Source of the DNA: a bacterium
GTDB lineage: Bacteria > Patescibacteriota > Doudnabacteria > UBA920
Length of the DNA: 33,983 bases
NCBI GenBank assembly: GCA_021791515.1
Contig: JAJYWK010000066.1
Coordinates: forward strand, 1-33,983
Direction of reading: 5' to 3'
Below the pieces are notes generated by a model. It saw nothing but the letters and a program-made list of their open reading frames with translations. It had not been told where the DNA came from and made no database searches. Below, piece by piece: positions 4,485 through 29,900 of this stretch. Position 1 is the first letter of the stretch; each line of letters starts with the position of its first letter. A program made the position numbers and the translations under genes.

Positions 4485-4563
4485 GCCGACGTAGCTCAAC
4501 TAGTACCTGCCCGCAACGCCTCGCAAGCTCGGCTTGCGTGGCAGGCGGGGAGCAACGGTATCG
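4485..4563 (+). pseudogene. tRNA-Thr copy A, 5' part (bases 1-35), with D-loop palindrome
   Basis: The acceptor strand gccgacg, D-arm and anticodon stem acggt lead to loop bases ATCG, after which the tRNA stops abruptly at anticodon base 35. A 44-nt palindrome sits in the D-loop (4506-4549). The continuation (bases 36-76) is found at 4890-4930. Removing the palindrome and the interval 4564-4889 gives 76 nt, with a perfect anticodon stem (acggt/accgt), a perfect T-stem and only one mismatch in the acceptor. Confidence 0.8.
4506..4549. repeat. Palindromic element in the D-loop of tRNA-Thr copy A
   Basis: Outer arms cctgcc/ggcagg with inner arms cgcaa/ttgcg. It separates ...ctagta from gagc, which is the same D-loop/D-stem boundary used by the palindromes in the CAT-tRNA relic (15418) and Asp relic (15832). 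Confidence 0.8.
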
Positions 4564-4607
4564 CCGCCCGCAACGACTTCGCGACTAATAATTTGATGTT
4601 TTATGTT

Positions 4608-4642
4608 GCCGGCTTAGCTCATCTGGTAGAGCAGTGGTATCG
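4608..4642 (+). pseudogene. tRNA-Thr copy B, 5' part (bases 1-35)
   Basis: Acceptor gccggct, D-arm gctc/gagc and anticodon stem gtggt are followed by loop bases ATCG. The sequence breaks at anticodon base 35, the same position as in copy A. The matching 3' acceptor (agccggc then tcca) is at 4825-4835. Confidence 0.8.
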
Positions 4643-4748
4643 CCCCGTCGAATCTGATGCGCCGAGATAGCTCAATTGGTAGAGCAGCGGTATCGTAAAC
4701 CGCAGGTTGGAGGTTCGATTCCTCTTCTCGGCTCCAGATTCAACGGGG
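4643..4748. repeat. Inverted-repeat cassette carrying an intact tRNA-Thr inside copy B
   Basis: The left arm 4643-4656 (ccccgtcgaatctg) and right arm 4735-4748 (cagattcaacgggg) are complementary at 13 of 14 positions. The right arm shares its first two bases with the CCA end of the intact tRNA, so the cassette is essentially an inverted repeat wrapped tightly around a tRNA gene. Confidence 0.8.
4661..4736 (+). tRNA. tRNA-Thr(CGT), intact
   Basis: 76 nt with all arms: acceptor gccgaga/tctcggc, D-stem gctc/gagc, anticodon stem gcggt/accgc with loop ATCGTAA (anticodon CGT), T-arm ggagg-ttcgatt-cctct, discriminator T and encoded CCA. It lies within the anticodon loop of disrupted copy B. It is the only complete tRNA in the Thr locus and presumably the functional one. 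Confidence 0.92.
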
Positions 4749-4835
4749 TAAATAAACCTCTATTTTAGGTTCAAGCTTGCCCCGTAGCGATTGAACGAAG
4801 CGAAATCTGCTACCGGGGTCCGACAGCCGGCTCCA
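4749..4835 (+). pseudogene. tRNA-Thr copy B, 3' part, with T-loop palindrome
   Basis: It begins with taaa, directly after the right arm of the inverted repeat, and ends agccggctcca, matching the acceptor of the 5' part at 4608. A 43-nt palindrome (4776-4818) interrupts the T-loop, and the T-stem no longer pairs well. After removal of the insertion the part is near 40-44 nt, so this copy is degraded. Confidence 0.7.
4776..4818. repeat. Palindromic element in the T-loop of copy B
   Basis: The arms ccccgtagc and gctaccgggg pair with one bulge. The loop contains gattgaacgaagcgaaatc. It splits ttcaag from tccgac. Confidence 0.75.
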
Positions 4836-4889
4836 TGAGACATTAAATATAATTATAATCTCATTAGGGTCGTTGCGAAGTCGGGCGGG

Positions 4890-4930
4890 TAAACCGTAGG
4901 TTAAGGGTTCAAATCCCTTCTTCGGCTCCA
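4890..4930 (+). pseudogene. tRNA-Thr copy A, 3' part (bases 36-76)
   Basis: 41 nt: taa, anticodon 3' stem accgt, variable loop, T-arm aaggg-ttcaaat-ccctt, acceptor cttcggc, T and CCA. It completes the 5' part at 4485-4563 into a 76-nt tRNA if the interruptions are ignored. Confidence 0.8.
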
Positions 4931-4996: not shown

Positions 4997-5042
4997 TATC
5001 GTAAACCGCGGGTTGGAGGTTCAATTCCTCTTCTCGGCTCCA
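4997..5042 (+). pseudogene. Additional tRNA-Thr 3' half (copy close to the intact gene)
   Basis: Begins tatcgtaaaccgcgg and ends tctcggctcca, nearly identical to the 3' part of the intact tRNA-Thr. It follows a hairpin (ccccg...cgggg, about 4960-4992) and the recurring junction cggggtaaa. No matching 5' half was found upstream. Confidence 0.75.
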
Positions 5043-5112: not shown

Positions 5113-5170
5113 TAAACAGGTTGGAGGTTCCCTGCCTGCCGGCAGGCAGGAAGTCCGACAGTCGGCCACA
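5113..5170 (+). pseudogene. Degraded tRNA-Thr 3' half with T-loop palindrome
   Basis: Another copy after cggggtaaa, starting at caggttggagg. The perfect 20-nt palindrome cctgcctgccggcaggcagg (5131-5150) is inserted after ttc in the T-loop, followed by tccgac and agtcggc. The end reads ccaca instead of tcca. A last fragment, cagcgaggtaataaac at 5175-5190, repeats the right arm of the cassette. Confidence 0.65.
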
Positions 5171-14895: not shown

Positions 14896-14938
14896 TGCGG
14901 GATAGAGCAATTGGCATCCGCCTTAGGCGGATCATAAC
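14896..14938 (+). pseudogene. Initiator tRNA 5' relic
   Basis: gcgggatagagcaattggca is identical to bases 2-21 of the intact tRNA-fMet at 15192. The 15-nt palindrome tccgccttaggcgga then replaces the D-stem/anticodon-stem segment, after which tcataacc, the anticodon loop, resumes. The GIY-YIG ORF begins 12 bases later. Confidence 0.8.
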
Positions 14939-14950
14939 CCTCTAAGTAGT

Positions 14951-15229
14951 ATGTTTGAGGTTTACGTAATCCAAAATCCTAAAGGCACTTTATACACCGG
15001 TTTTACCTCAAATCTGGCTGCCAGATTAGCTGAACACAATACTGGAAAACCTGGAAACTATACTTATAAGCGTGGTCCTTGGAAACTTATACATAAAGAA
15101 ATTTATGAGTTCAAAGACGAAGCTTCTAAAAGAGAAAAGTTCCTCAAATCAGGAAAGGGGAGAGAATTTATTAAAAGCTTCGTGATAATATCGCGGGATA
15201 GAGCAATTGGCAGCTCGCAAGGCTCATAA
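14951..15229 (+). CDS. GIY-YIG domain nuclease ORF running into tRNA-fMet
   Basis: 92 residues, a single GIY-YIG domain of the UPF0213/YhbQ-like type. VYVIQN and LYTGFTS supply the GIY/YIG strands, ARLAEHN the catalytic Arg, and REKFLKSGKGREFIK the metal-binding Glu region and family tail. The last ~14 codons (from about SRDRAIGSSQGS) are read from the 5' half of tRNA-fMet, and the stop TAA lies in its anticodon loop. It sits between a 5' relic of the same tRNA and the intact tRNA, exactly like the ORF at 15899. Confidence 0.85.
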   Translation: MFEVYVIQNPKGTLYTGFTSNLAARLAEHNTGKPGNYTYKRGPWKLIHKEIYEFKDEASKREKFLKSGKGREFIKSFVIISRDRAIGSSQGS

Positions 15230-15267
15230 CCTTGAGGTTCCCGGTTCGAGTCCGGGTCCCGCAACCA
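15192..15267 (+). tRNA. Initiator tRNA-fMet(CAT)
   Basis: 76 nt: cgcggga/tcccgca acceptor with the C1xA72 mismatch typical of bacterial initiators, D-arm gagc/gctc, anticodon stem caagg/ccttg with loop CTCATAA, T-arm cccgg-ttcgagt-ccggg, A and encoded CCA. The first 38 bases overlap the C-terminal codons of the GIY-YIG ORF. Confidence 0.93.
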
Positions 15268-15395
15268 AGCTAGTTTTGTATGCCTAAGCATAAAAAATTG
15301 ACCGGGTTTAAACCTAAAATCGTGACAGATTTTACCCTCTGTTCGAGGGTTTTAAAATATATAGCGCGGCAAACTTGTCCGGCTGCGCAAAGCGT

Positions 15396-15451
15396 GACGG
15401 GATAGCTCAGTTAGTTACCTGCCTGCCGGCAGGCAGGGATCGTGGGATTCA
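15396..15451 (+). pseudogene. CAT-tRNA copy D, 5' part (bases 1-35) with D-loop palindrome
   Basis: gacggga, ta, gctc, agttagtta, then the 20-nt palindrome cctgcctgccggcaggcagg (15418-15437), then gatc, g, tggga and loop bases TTCA. It breaks after anticodon base 35 (C-A). Without the palindrome it is 36 nt and joins the 41-nt 3' part at 15615 to give 77 nt. Confidence 0.75.
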
Positions 15452-15610
15452 GCCCGCACTAAATTTTTACAATCAATTTTCTACCGTGGTCTTTTGGGGC
15501 CGGAGTAGCTCAGTTAGTTAGAGCGTGGGACTCATAAGCCCAAGGTCAGAGGTGCAATTCCTCTCTCCGGCACCATGAGCCCGCGGTATGGATAGAAATT
15601 TAGTGCGGGC
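15452..15610. repeat. Inverted-repeat cassette carrying intact CAT tRNA inside copy D
   Basis: gcccgcactaaattt (15452-15466) and aaatttagtgcgggc (15596-15610) are perfectly complementary over 15 bp. Closer in, taccgtgg (15482-15489) and ccgcggta (15581-15588) pair with one mismatch. The intact tRNA 15499-15575 lies between. Confidence 0.85.
15499..15575 (+). tRNA. tRNA with CAT anticodon (elongator Met or Ile2)
   Basis: 77 nt: acceptor gccggag/ctccggc, D-stem gctc/gagc, anticodon loop CTCATAA, T-arm agagg-tgcaatt-cctct, A and CCA. Acceptor base pairs G1-C72 exclude the initiator. Met and Ile2 (lysidine-modified) cannot be separated by anticodon alone. Confidence 0.88.
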
Positions 15611-15614
15611 CGAG

Positions 15615-15655
15615 TAAGCCCAAGGTCAGAGGTGCAATTCCTCTCTCCGGCACCA
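15615..15655 (+). pseudogene. CAT-tRNA copy D, 3' part (bases 36-76)
   Basis: 41 nt identical to the 3' part of the intact tRNA at 15535-15575, starting exactly at the third anticodon base. Four bases (cgag) separate it from the right arm of the inverted repeat. Confidence 0.85.
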
Positions 15656-15673
15656 AAGTGGTCTAAATAAGTT

Positions 15674-15806
15674 AAGACTCCCAAAAATTAGGAGCGCAGT
15701 TCCGCCGCAGGCGGGACGAGCACGGATTTTTGGGAAAGAGGAGCAACAACGAATTGAGTGAACTCCGACGTTTAAGTCGGAGTGAACGTAAATAAGTTTG
15801 TTGCGA
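15674..15806. repeat. Nested palindromes between the CAT-tRNA and Asp-tRNA units
   Basis: tcccaaaaatt and atttttggga enclose tccgccgcaggcggga. Next to it ctccgac-gtttaa-gtcggag sits inside gcaacaa...ttgttgc arms. No coding potential is seen here; the minus-strand ORF at 15672-15869 only reflects these repeats. Confidence 0.65.
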
Positions 15807-15809
15807 CGA

Positions 15810-15890
15810 GGGACCGTAGCTCAATTGGTTACCCGCCCGAACGTACCGCTCGGTACGGGCGGGGAGCACCCGCCTGTCACCAAAGAGGTT
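15810..15890 (+). pseudogene. tRNA-Asp 5' relic with D-loop palindrome
   Basis: gggaccgtagctcaattggt-ta and then gagcacccgcctgtcac match the intact tRNA-Asp exactly, split by a 32-nt palindrome (15832-15863, cccgcccg...cgggcggg). Beyond the anticodon the stem base pairs are changed (gcggg to caaag), but aggtta is still shared. Homology ends just before the T-stem, and the GIY-YIG start codon follows. Confidence 0.85.
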
Positions 15891-15898
15891 AAAAGCAA

Positions 15899-16156
15899 AT
15901 GTATACCGTATACGTATTAAAAGATAAGCTGGGAAACCTATATAAAGGCTTTACTAGCGATACCGAAAGGAGAATTAAAGAGCATAAATATGGCAAGACC
16001 AAAACGACCAGAAAAATGGAAAATCTTCAAATTATTTACACCGAAAACTTAAATTCCAGACTTGAGGCCAGAAAAAGAGAAAAATATTTAAAGTCAGCCG
16101 CAGGAAGAAGATTCCTAAAATCAATAGGTATATGGGACCGTAGCTCAATTGGTTAG
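15899..16156 (+). CDS. Second GIY-YIG nuclease ORF, running into tRNA-Asp
   Basis: 85 residues, same single-domain type as the ORF at 14951: MYTVYVLKDKLGNLYKGFTS (GIY/YIG strands), RRIKEHKYG (catalytic Arg), EARKREKYLKSAAGRRFLKS (Glu and tail). The final codons (GIWDRSSIG) come from the first 23 bases of tRNA-Asp, and the TAG stop lies in its D-loop. The arrangement relic-ORF-intact tRNA is the same as in the fMet unit. The two ORFs differ in sequence, so they are not a recent tandem copy of one cassette. Confidence 0.85.
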   Translation: MYTVYVLKDKLGNLYKGFTSDTERRIKEHKYGKTKTTRKMENLQIIYTENLNSRLEARKREKYLKSAAGRRFLKSIGIWDRSSIG

Positions 16157-16210
16157 AGCACCCGCCTGTCACGCGGGAGGTTACGGGTTCGAGCCCCGCC
16201 GGTCCCGCCA
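16134..16210 (+). tRNA. tRNA-Asp(GTC); left boundary of the integrated element
   Basis: 77 nt: acceptor gggaccg/cggtccc, D-arm gctc/gagc, anticodon stem cccgc/gcggg with loop CTGTCAC, T-arm acggg-ttcgagc-cccgc, G and CCA. The 5' part is the stop region of a GIY-YIG ORF and the 3' part antisense is the C-terminus of the serine recombinase. This is the likely attachment site; a second copy of the tRNA 3' end should mark the right border, but none is seen in the window. Confidence 0.93.
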
Positions 16211-17724
16211 GATTTCCGCGCTGGAACTTGCATAGTTGCGAGAGAATTTGGAGCTTCAGCGCGAGAATCTTCCGAAACTTTTGAGGTTTGCAAATCTACA
16301 ATACAGTCAAACACTGGCGTCCATTTGGGCACCAGTTTTTGGTTTGTGTGGACGAAACCTTCAAAGCAGAGCTTAATGATGGTGCGTTTTTGCATGACGC
16401 CGGATTTTTCGTAAAGAAGGTCAGCGTGGTCGTTAAAATTCAGCAGGTCGTTGAATGCTTGCACAAACTTGTCGGACTGGCTTTCCAGGTCGGCCAGCCG
16501 CTCCTGGTAGACCTGCTTTTCCCGCAGCAGCTCGTCCTGTGCCTTCAGAAAAATCTCGGCATCGATTAACCTTTTGGATCGATCCATAACCAGATTGCGG
16601 ATCTGCTGCTGGATTTTGACCAGTTCCTGCTTAATGCTTTTACGCTCCAGTTCTTCGTTGGTCAGCCTCGTCTTGGCAAAGTGCTGAAAGTAGGCATCCA
16701 TAGTCTTCTTCATTTTGCCCGGCAGCTGCACCCGGGACAGGAAAGCCAAAACTTGCGGTTCGATTTCTGTATCTTTAGAGTACCGCTTTTCCGGACAATA
16801 AATGTCGCGCCTCTTGGTGCAGCTGTAATACAGGTGACCTTTTTTAAGTTGTCCCACCATAGCCGAGCCGCAGTGGCCGCAGCGGATGTAACCAGACAAG
16901 GGGTAAATGTGCTTGCGGGTGCGGTCTGCATAATGGTTTCTCTCCTGGATTTTTTCCTGCACGTCGTCAAACAACTTTTTGGAAATAAGTGTCGGAAAGC
17001 TGGCCTGGGCAGTGCCGTACGCTGTCTTTATAAGGCCGTAGTAGATGGGATTGCCCAAAATGTGCTCTATTGTCCTCCGGCCGACTGGTGTGCCGCCCCT
17101 TGCCCGAAAGCCCCGCTCGTTAAGCAGCACGGCCAATGCCTCATAGCCGTACTTGCCGGTGGCGTAAAGATCAAAGGCTTGTTTGACGAACTTTGCCCGG
17201 GTATGGTCTATGGTTAAAAGCTTGGTCTTTTTATCGTTAAGATAGCCAAGCGGCGCCACTCCCGGAAAGCGGCCGCGCTCTACCGCTTCTTTCAATCCCT
17301 TTTTAACCTCCCAACTGATGTTCTGGCTCGTCCACTGGGCAATCGATGCCATAATATTCTCCACCAACTCTCCGGAAAAGGATTCGTCAAACTGCTCAAC
17401 CACCGAAATGACCCTGACATCGTGCTTTTTAAGCATCATTTTAATGGCGGCGTAGTCAGCGACATTGCGGCAGAGCCTGTCCAGCTTATGGACTAAGATG
17501 ACATCGACCTTGTCGTCAATTTTTGCCCTGTGCAGCATTTTTTGCAGCTGCGGACGTTCGGCCGTCCTGGCCGATTCGCCGCGCTCCTCAAAAACATTCT
17601 CCGGCAAGGAATGCCAGGCATGCTCAGTGGCATACTTTTGGCAGGCTTTTATTTGCGCCGGAATGGATAATTCACGTTCTGCCTGCCGGGTCGTGGACAC
17701 CCGGCCGTAAATAAGGTAGTTCAT
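16153..17724 (-). CDS. Large serine recombinase / integrase
   Basis: 523 residues. The resolvase domain has YGRVSTTRQAERELS with the catalytic Ser, plus LVHKLDRLCRN. A Recombinase domain follows (GVAPLGYLNDKKTKLLTIDH, then RRTIEHILGNPIYYGLI), then a zinc ribbon (RCGHCGSAM ... YYSCTKRRDIYC) and a coiled coil (about 385-430). The last residues GGTGGARTRNLPRDRRVL are tRNA-Asp read antisense, with the stop inside the tRNA. It would integrate and excise the element. Because its tail is encoded by the attachment site, the C-terminus should change between integrated and circular forms (inference). Confidence 0.95.
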   Translation of the reverse strand: MNYLIYGRVSTTRQAERELSIPAQIKACQKYATEHAWHSLPENVFEERGESARTAERPQLQKMLHRAKIDDKVDVILVHKLDRLCRNVADYAAIKMMLKKHDVRVISVVEQFDESFSGELVENIMASIAQWTSQNISWEVKKGLKEAVERGRFPGVAPLGYLNDKKTKLLTIDHTRAKFVKQAFDLYATGKYGYEALAVLLNERGFRARGGTPVGRRTIEHILGNPIYYGLIKTAYGTAQASFPTLISKKLFDDVQEKIQERNHYADRTRKHIYPLSGYIRCGHCGSAMVGQLKKGHLYYSCTKRRDIYCPEKRYSKDTEIEPQVLAFLSRVQLPGKMKKTMDAYFQHFAKTRLTNEELERKSIKQELVKIQQQIRNLVMDRSKRLIDAEIFLKAQDELLREKQVYQERLADLESQSDKFVQAFNDLLNFNDHADLLYEKSGVMQKRTIIKLCFEGFVHTNQKLVPKWTPVFDCIVDLQTSKVSEDSRAEAPNSLATMQVPARKSGGTGGARTRNLPRDRRVL

Positions 17725-29728: not shown

Positions 29729-29900
29729 AAAGGCCCCCACCAGGAGCTCGACCCTTTCGGGCCGAACGCACGGGTTTCCCCATGCGACCAGCAAAGGAAC
29801 CCTGGCGAGGGTTTCTCTATCCTTTGCTGGTTTGGCTACCGGAGCAGCCAGTTGCCATGCCCGAAGCCTGTAAGGCCTGCGGGTTTAGGCGAATTTAGTT
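29729..29900 (-). ncRNA. Structured leader or small RNA upstream of the 55-aa gene
   Basis: accagcaaagga (29787-29798) pairs perfectly with tcctttgctggt (29820-29831), with a further inner stem aaccct/agggtt. Reading leftward, ggccc...gggcc followed by ttttt forms a terminator-like hairpin just before the ATG at 29705. A possible promoter (TTGTGT-N18-TAAATT) lies upstream near 29900-29930. The + strand ORFs here (29670, 29699) are shadows. Confidence 0.5.

Follow-up and report, generated by a model that had tools for sequence, protein, structure and literature searches.

Palindromes in displaced tRNA copies of a Doudnabacteria genome as a likely component of mobile GIY-YIG nuclease cassettes

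The stretch of DNA analyzed here (the window) comprises 33,983 nucleotides from a Doudnabacteria genome of 1.17 Mb in 70 contigs (G000), for which ARAGORN predicts 46 intact tRNAs. About 28 clusters of tRNA relics were found in this genome, nearly all of them next to an intact tRNA with matching specificity. The relics, palindromes, and adjoining genes of the window that are relevant here are listed below.

4485-4505, plus strand: Thr-A 5' relic, tRNA positions 1-21 (GCCGACGTAGCTCAACTAGTA); read directly, isotype as in the intact tRNA-Thr at 4661-4736
4506-4549, strand not applicable: imperfect palindrome of 44 nt in the D-loop of Thr-A, followed by GAGCAACGGTATCG; read directly
4596-4607, plus strand: ATGTTTTATGTT, probable leftover of a GIY-YIG ORF start (M-F-Y-V), based on N-terminus comparison
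4608-4642, plus strand: second Thr 5' relic, positions 1-35, with its break at the anticodon loop
4643-4748, strand not applicable: inverted repeat CCCCGTCGAATCTG / CAGATTCAACGGGG around the intact tRNA-Thr at 4661-4736; read directly
About 4780-4818, strand not applicable: palindrome CCCCGTAGC..GCTACCGGGG in the T-loop of a Thr 3' relic; read directly
5131-5150, strand not applicable: CCTGCCTGCCGGCAGGCAGG in the T-loop of another Thr 3' relic
14897-14916, plus strand: fMet 5' relic, 100% match to positions 2-21 of the intact tRNA-fMet
14917-14931, strand not applicable: fMet-relic palindrome TCCGCCTTAGGCGGA, 15 nt, D-loop/anticodon stem; 11 copies of its class in the genome
14951-15229, plus strand: GIY-YIG nuclease ORF, 92 aa (Pfam PF01541, E=1.6e-14), stop codon within tRNA-fMet
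15192-15267, plus strand: intact tRNA-fMet (CAT); ARAGORN, Rfam
15398-15417, plus strand: CAT-D (tRNA-Met) 5' relic
15418-15437, strand not applicable: CAT-D palindrome CCTGCCTGCCGGCAGGCAGG, 20 nt, at TTA^GA, then GATC; 16 copies in the genome
15449-15613, strand not applicable: 21-bp inverted repeat (15449-15469 / 15593-15613, 90%) around the intact tRNA-Met at 15499-15575
15615-15655, plus strand: tRNA-Met 3' relic, positions 37-77, without palindrome, 100% over 41 nt
15810-15831, plus strand: Asp 5' relic, positions 1-22, 100%
15832-15863, strand not applicable: family-A palindrome CCCGCCCGAACGTACCGCTCGGTACGGGCGGG of the Asp relic, 32 nt, at TA^G; sole copy in this genome
15864-15891, plus strand: remainder of the Asp 5' relic, opening with GAGCACCCGCCTGTCAC
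15899-16156, plus strand: GIY-YIG nuclease ORF, 85 aa (Pfam PF01541, E=2.8e-11), whose TAG stop is the TAG within tRNA-Asp
16134-16210, plus strand: intact tRNA-Asp (GTC); ARAGORN, Rfam

Direct reading confirmed the positions and lengths (44, 15, 20, and 32 nt) of the D-arm palindromes that the initial annotation had described in four relics, as well as its statement that the fMet palindrome displaces 11 nt: TCCGCCTTAGGCGGA stands in place of GCTCGCAAGGC and is followed by TCATAACC. The palindromes that it had placed in the T-loops of two further relics are real, and its observation that intact tRNAs lack a palindrome holds for the 4 intact tRNAs of the window and for all 46 ARAGORN tRNAs, which are uninterrupted partly by construction, as ARAGORN skips interrupted genes. 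Many 3' relics are without a palindrome as well (e.g., 4889-4930, 5001-5042, and 15615-15655). The key to the pattern is a feature absent from that annotation, namely the GIY-YIG ORFs that lie between relic and intact tRNA. The relics are parts of a cassette, in which the 5' part of a tRNA with a palindrome is followed by a GIY-YIG nuclease gene of 80-100 codons and an intact tRNA of the same kind, with the displaced 3' part of the tRNA sometimes found at the end, after the intact tRNA. The CAT-D relic possesses the palindrome and lacks the ORF, and the intact tRNA-Met lies inside the 21-bp inverted repeat within the relic. At Thr-A, ATGTTTTATGTT, which follows the palindrome and is located directly 5' of the second Thr relic (4608-4642), looks like the start of an otherwise lost GIY-YIG ORF, judging from the sequence. 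Furthermore, a large serine recombinase gene (16153-17724) overlaps with its end the intact tRNA-Asp, which suggests a further integrated element in that tRNA. A match to LOOT RNA (RF03000) above the gathering score was also found in the window (29749-29891, minus strand).

Inverted repeats (often CCCCG..CGGGG) enclose intact tRNAs at further places of the genome (contigs C21, C44, C52, C62, C67, and C70) as well as in the window (4608-4835 and 15398-15655), and the enclosed tRNAs are nested in a relic of the same tRNA, at times several layers deep. The outer and inner tRNA-Leu are nearly identical at C62:43233. Nested outer and inner tRNAs can differ in the acceptor stem, each being internally paired (L220, L234, and C21 of G000). 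A set of dispersed palindromic elements has the ends TTTACCCCGTTAAAT..ATTTAACGGGGTAAA (C15:30664, C62:30214, C9:2892, C19:35066, and others), and these arms also enclose a tRNA-Pro and a tRNA-Val relic.

Both nuclease ORFs of the window are above the PF01541 cut-off (54.4 and 44.0 bits compared to 22.6), and the active-site residues Y5, Y15, G17, R25, and E61 are invariant among 13 sequences; a search of NCBIfam gave no match for either protein. By sequence, the closest solved structures are those of UPF0213 (1zg2, 1ywl) and SLX1 (7wme, 6seh). The likeness to these GIY-YIG proteins is that of best matches among solved structures; unlike the cassette nucleases, they are not known as tRNA-gene elements, and SLX1 has extra domains. 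To our knowledge, no role has been assigned to short GIY-YIG proteins like these. The stop codon lies within the downstream tRNA in 31 of 61 loci, and in 16 it is found exactly at position 10, with TAG corresponding to U8-A9-G10.

Several other GIY-YIG ORFs were noted. Another family (L219, L222, L223, L225, L227, and C48 of G000) is intergenic, located away from tRNAs, and framed by a conserved GCCCAGTAATACAACTT.. / TGATATACTGGG pair. At C32:13931-14134 of G000 (L047), a GIY-YIG ORF lies within the 16S rRNA gene, with the inverted repeat CCCAGCACTTATTTC / GAAATTAGTGCTGGG on both sides and without a group I intron match. At L212, a GIY-YIG ORF is placed between CCCCGTGAGATA / TATCTCACGGGG; the sequence reads like an interrupted RNase P RNA gene, an assignment for which Rfam gave no confirmation.

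For a survey of the cassette, loci were collected through nuclease protein similarity alone, ignoring palindromes, from 49 genomes of the order and 84,980 species genomes, together with a few loci read in the genomes G000, G001, G004, G007, and G015. They originate from Patescibacteria, Bacteroidetes, and one Deltaproteobacterium. An intact same-strand tRNA directly follows 63 of the 94 nuclease ORFs, a fraction that is not valid for GIY-YIG proteins at large, as tRNA-associated nucleases served as seeds, and the adjoining tRNAs span 17 amino-acid classes. In 55 of these 63 loci, the upstream region was found to contain a 5' relic of that tRNA with a single insertion, compared to 26 of 111 nuclease-free tRNAs from the same relic-rich genus; by reading, most of the remaining 8 upstream regions also contain an interrupted 5' relic. 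Among 53 distinct loci with an alignable relic, the insertion is located at tRNA positions 7-25 in 49, and 37 of the 53 inserts have a fold z of -2 or lower. Compared to controls, the leaders upstream of nuclease ORFs are better folded (P=4e-6). Folding z-scores and split alignment replaced a symmetric hairpin score, which misses bulged palindromes and gave weak contrast. Palindrome and ORF are in every case separated by sequence of the local tRNA. An assembly artifact is unlikely, since the layout recurs in dozens of genomes, including that of an isolate, Polaribacter sp. BAL334 (L264). The arrangement is undescribed in the open-access literature searched.

The comparison with relatives revealed empty and occupied sites at the same locus, as expected of free-standing homing endonuclease genes. 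The fMet-Met-Asp operon 3' of the gene for the CCA-adding enzyme is conserved within the order, and in L119 (genome G012), L120, and others, each of the three tRNAs is present as one uninterrupted copy. At the Asp site, the cassette is found in the window's genome and in G007, a member of the same genus in which the cassette is the same and the palindrome nearly so; L119, L108, and L120 have an empty Asp site. In G015, which belongs to another genus, it is tRNA-Met that is occupied, with a palindrome of the Asp family in its D-arm. The D-arm of the intact Asp copy is the same as in cassette-free relatives.

Across the window's genome, 149 G+C-rich hairpins with a score of at least 9 were found, compared to 7 in a first-order Markov control; thus, palindromes form a genuine class here. 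With palindrome classes set by simple text patterns, so that a few labels are imprecise, family B (CCTGCCTGCCGGCAGGCAGG) has 16 copies, family F (TCCGCC..GGCGGA) has 11, and family A has 1. The presence of families B and F elsewhere in the genome fits the view that the palindromes are ordinary dispersed mobile hairpins, comparable to REP sequences, which hit the loops of dispensable tRNA copies and survive only in relics, as hits in working tRNAs would be lethal, the nuclease being a separate passenger. This is further in line with the relic breakpoints of three genomes, of which fewer lie inside stems than expected (18 of 80 compared to 36.7), and with palindromes in T-loops and anticodon loops of relics without a nuclease. 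However, the G+C-rich hairpins are not enriched near tRNAs: only 4 of the 91 intergenic ones lie within 400 nt of a tRNA, while about 6 are expected from DNA length, a result by which we rejected the palindromes as a tRNA-seeking class. Moreover, essentially all 5' relics before nuclease ORFs carry a palindrome while many 3' relics do not, the TA^G site described below is not common to standalone copies, and palindrome type tracks the nuclease tree. We therefore regard dispersed hairpins with a passenger nuclease as an unlikely explanation. An even spread of palindromes along relics and intergenic DNA, which the initial annotation had named as an outcome that would speak against its proposal, is found for hairpins in general but not for the relics that precede nuclease ORFs.

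The initial annotation had also pointed to a Y1/HUH-type transposase as a possible agent. The genome does contain three Y1_Tnp loci, and two of these are separated from tRNAs by a few hundred nt, but nothing links them to the relic palindromes: two short Y1 genes are flanked by their own, different palindromes, a shared terminal motif was not found, and the sharing of a palindrome with the ends of the Y1 gene that characterizes RAYT was not seen for these two genes. Insertion of the palindromes by such REP-associated transposases is thus very improbable. Target duplications, which had been suggested as a further sign of insertion, were not seen at the Asp, CAT-D, or Leu sites. As to a retron-type explanation, the genome contains one reverse-transcriptase domain, for which no link was seen.

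Of 24 family-A and family-B palindromes within the relics, 21 are positioned at TA^G, namely at A9^G10 or at A21^G22, and in three relics (L242, L244, and L264) both sites are filled. Both sites are borders between unpaired and paired segments of the cloverleaf, so that a sequence rule and a structure rule are indistinguishable here; insertions in Leu tRNAs at GGCAGA^CAC favor the structure rule. That palindromes occupy one or both D-arm TA^G sites would agree with a role in which the palindrome protects the displaced copy from being cut by the nuclease again and hence marks the cut site, and the double insertions fill both. Nevertheless, the intact downstream tRNA has the same uninterrupted sites, and one blocked copy offers no protection unless the nuclease needs the upstream flank too, which makes this a rather improbable account of the pattern.

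A different function is suggested by the location of the palindromes about 11-50 nt 5' of the start codon, where they could act as leader hairpins controlling nuclease translation, with the position in the tRNA merely reflecting that of the leader. There is direct precedent in T4, where hairpins just 5' of the ORFs of segB, mobE, and I-TevI sequester the ribosome-binding site (PMC2988022), and the G-rich 3' arm of the palindrome could hold a Shine-Dalgarno sequence. However, the spacing to the start codon varies widely, the tRNA junctions A9^G10 and A21^G22 define the position more sharply than the distance to the start codon does, and family A is found in both orientations. As the sole reason for the pattern, a leader hairpin therefore appears quite unlikely.

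The family-A pattern was found at 13 places in the 49 genomes, compared to 0 for a reversed control pattern. At 5 of these places, it occupies a D-arm TA^G followed by a nuclease ORF, while the other 8 copies are standalone and not at TA^G, indicating that the tRNA position comes with the nuclease cassette and not with the palindrome alone. The proposal that palindromes select this spot is therefore unsupported as stated. In the wider survey, the D-arm position did recur, albeit as part of a nuclease cassette and not as palindrome targeting alone. The second proposal of the initial annotation, that palindromes mark and inactivate the displaced copy, fits better, given that nearly every 5' relic before a nuclease ORF carries a palindrome and many 3' relics do not. 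On the nuclease tree, palindrome type changes 13 times (mean of shuffles 33.9, with none of 200 shuffles as low), compared to 31 changes of tRNA identity. A single nuclease clade (support 100/99) with family-A palindromes occurs in Asp, Val, Ala, Arg, Phe, Ile, Thr, and Lys tRNAs. Palindrome type is thus stable on the tree while tRNA identity switches, which argues that palindrome and nuclease move together between tRNA genes of different specificity; nevertheless, the palindrome is in all cases surrounded by sequence of the local tRNA.

Building on the observed layout, its recurrence, the D-arm position, the link between palindrome type and nuclease lineage, and the empty sites, we consider it likely that the palindromes regularly form part of a mobile cassette living in tRNA genes, i.e., of a tRNA-invading GIY-YIG element with a carried or rebuilt tRNA. 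The predicted nuclease would cut tRNA genes, repair of the cut would copy the cassette in, and the host would survive because an intact tRNA is rebuilt or supplied simultaneously, as in a homing element with a rescue copy. One conceivable path is that a donor cassette serves as the template for repair of the cut tRNA gene, with the conserved D-arm providing the homology, and that the 5' end is corrected afterwards. The palindrome may keep the displaced copy inert and unlike the working copy, a difference that would stop the flanking direct repeats from recombining the nuclease gene away, and it may also form a leader hairpin on the nuclease mRNA. Its job is the least certain part of this explanation, and interruption of the repeats against nuclease loss, control of nuclease translation, and a block to re-cutting are all compatible with the data; repeat interruption would explain why palindromes are found in 5' relics before the nuclease gene and are absent from many 3' relics.

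Several observations count against the mobile cassette. The D-arm of the intact Asp copy is unchanged, which would expose the host itself to a nuclease that cuts the D-arm alone. The always-local tRNA sequence between palindrome and ORF is not explained by a simple contiguous insertion. Furthermore, the palindromes are not exclusive to the cassette, with families B and F occurring elsewhere and family A being standalone at 8 of 13 places, and CAT-D has a palindrome without an ORF.

More tentatively, the cassettes may constitute a widespread and undescribed class of selfish elements in Patescibacteria and Bacteroidetes, in which the GIY-YIG nuclease targets the D-arm of nearly any tRNA gene, the rebuilt tRNA acts as the rescue of a natural home-and-rescue drive, and a lineage-specific TA^G palindrome in the displaced copy is obligatory. 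From this pattern, a large part of this short GIY-YIG lineage appears to consist of tRNA-gene parasites, which would persist within essential genes by leaving behind a functional copy and not through an intron or intein. Such a reading would account for many of the tRNA relics in these reduced genomes and offer a natural parallel to synthetic rescue drives, and the cassette pattern makes the role of the small palindromes testable.

Among known systems, the closest functional parallel is T4 SegB and the free-standing GIY-YIG homing endonucleases (PMC2988022), with which the cassettes share a small GIY-YIG gene in a tRNA cluster, a target in the tRNA region, which is predicted in the case of the cassettes, and a hairpin 5' of the ORF. 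While SegB lies between phage tRNAs, the cassette ORF is flanked by two copies of one chromosomal tRNA, the first broken and the second intact; it often ends within the intact tRNA, and the palindrome interrupts the broken copy. We therefore regard the cassettes as a variant among the free-standing GIY-YIG elements, distinguished by a palindrome and by the unusual way in which the host gene is rescued. Invasion of tRNA genes is also a property of group I introns with homing endonucleases, which are found in tRNA and rRNA genes (PMC3984707), but these keep the host tRNA by splicing, whereas the cassette does so by a second tRNA copy. A search of the window for the group I intron core (RF00028) gave no match at E<=1; relatives do contain members of this family, including an intron at the tRNA-fMet anticodon, within the same operon, in the same-genus genome G001 (L113, 671-873; L175, 1509-1711) and one with a GIY-YIG ORF in 16S rRNA (L232).

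REP sequences, Rickettsia palindromic elements, and cyanobacterial small dispersed repeats are all short hairpin DNA in multiple copies, and some dispersed small palindromes insert into loops of structural RNA genes. The relic palindromes resemble REP-type dispersed small palindromes (PMC3686654) in being short hairpin DNA, with many copies in the case of families B and F and a single copy of family A in this genome. Unlike these, they are found at a fixed D-arm junction before a nuclease gene, and their type is tied to the nuclease lineage. Finally, elements that replace the displaced end of a gene include an endonuclease element in Allomyces mitochondria as well as synthetic home-and-rescue drives. 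Like the cassettes, these combine a nuclease gene with a substitute for the essential gene that they interrupt; in the cassettes, however, the rescued gene is a whole tRNA.
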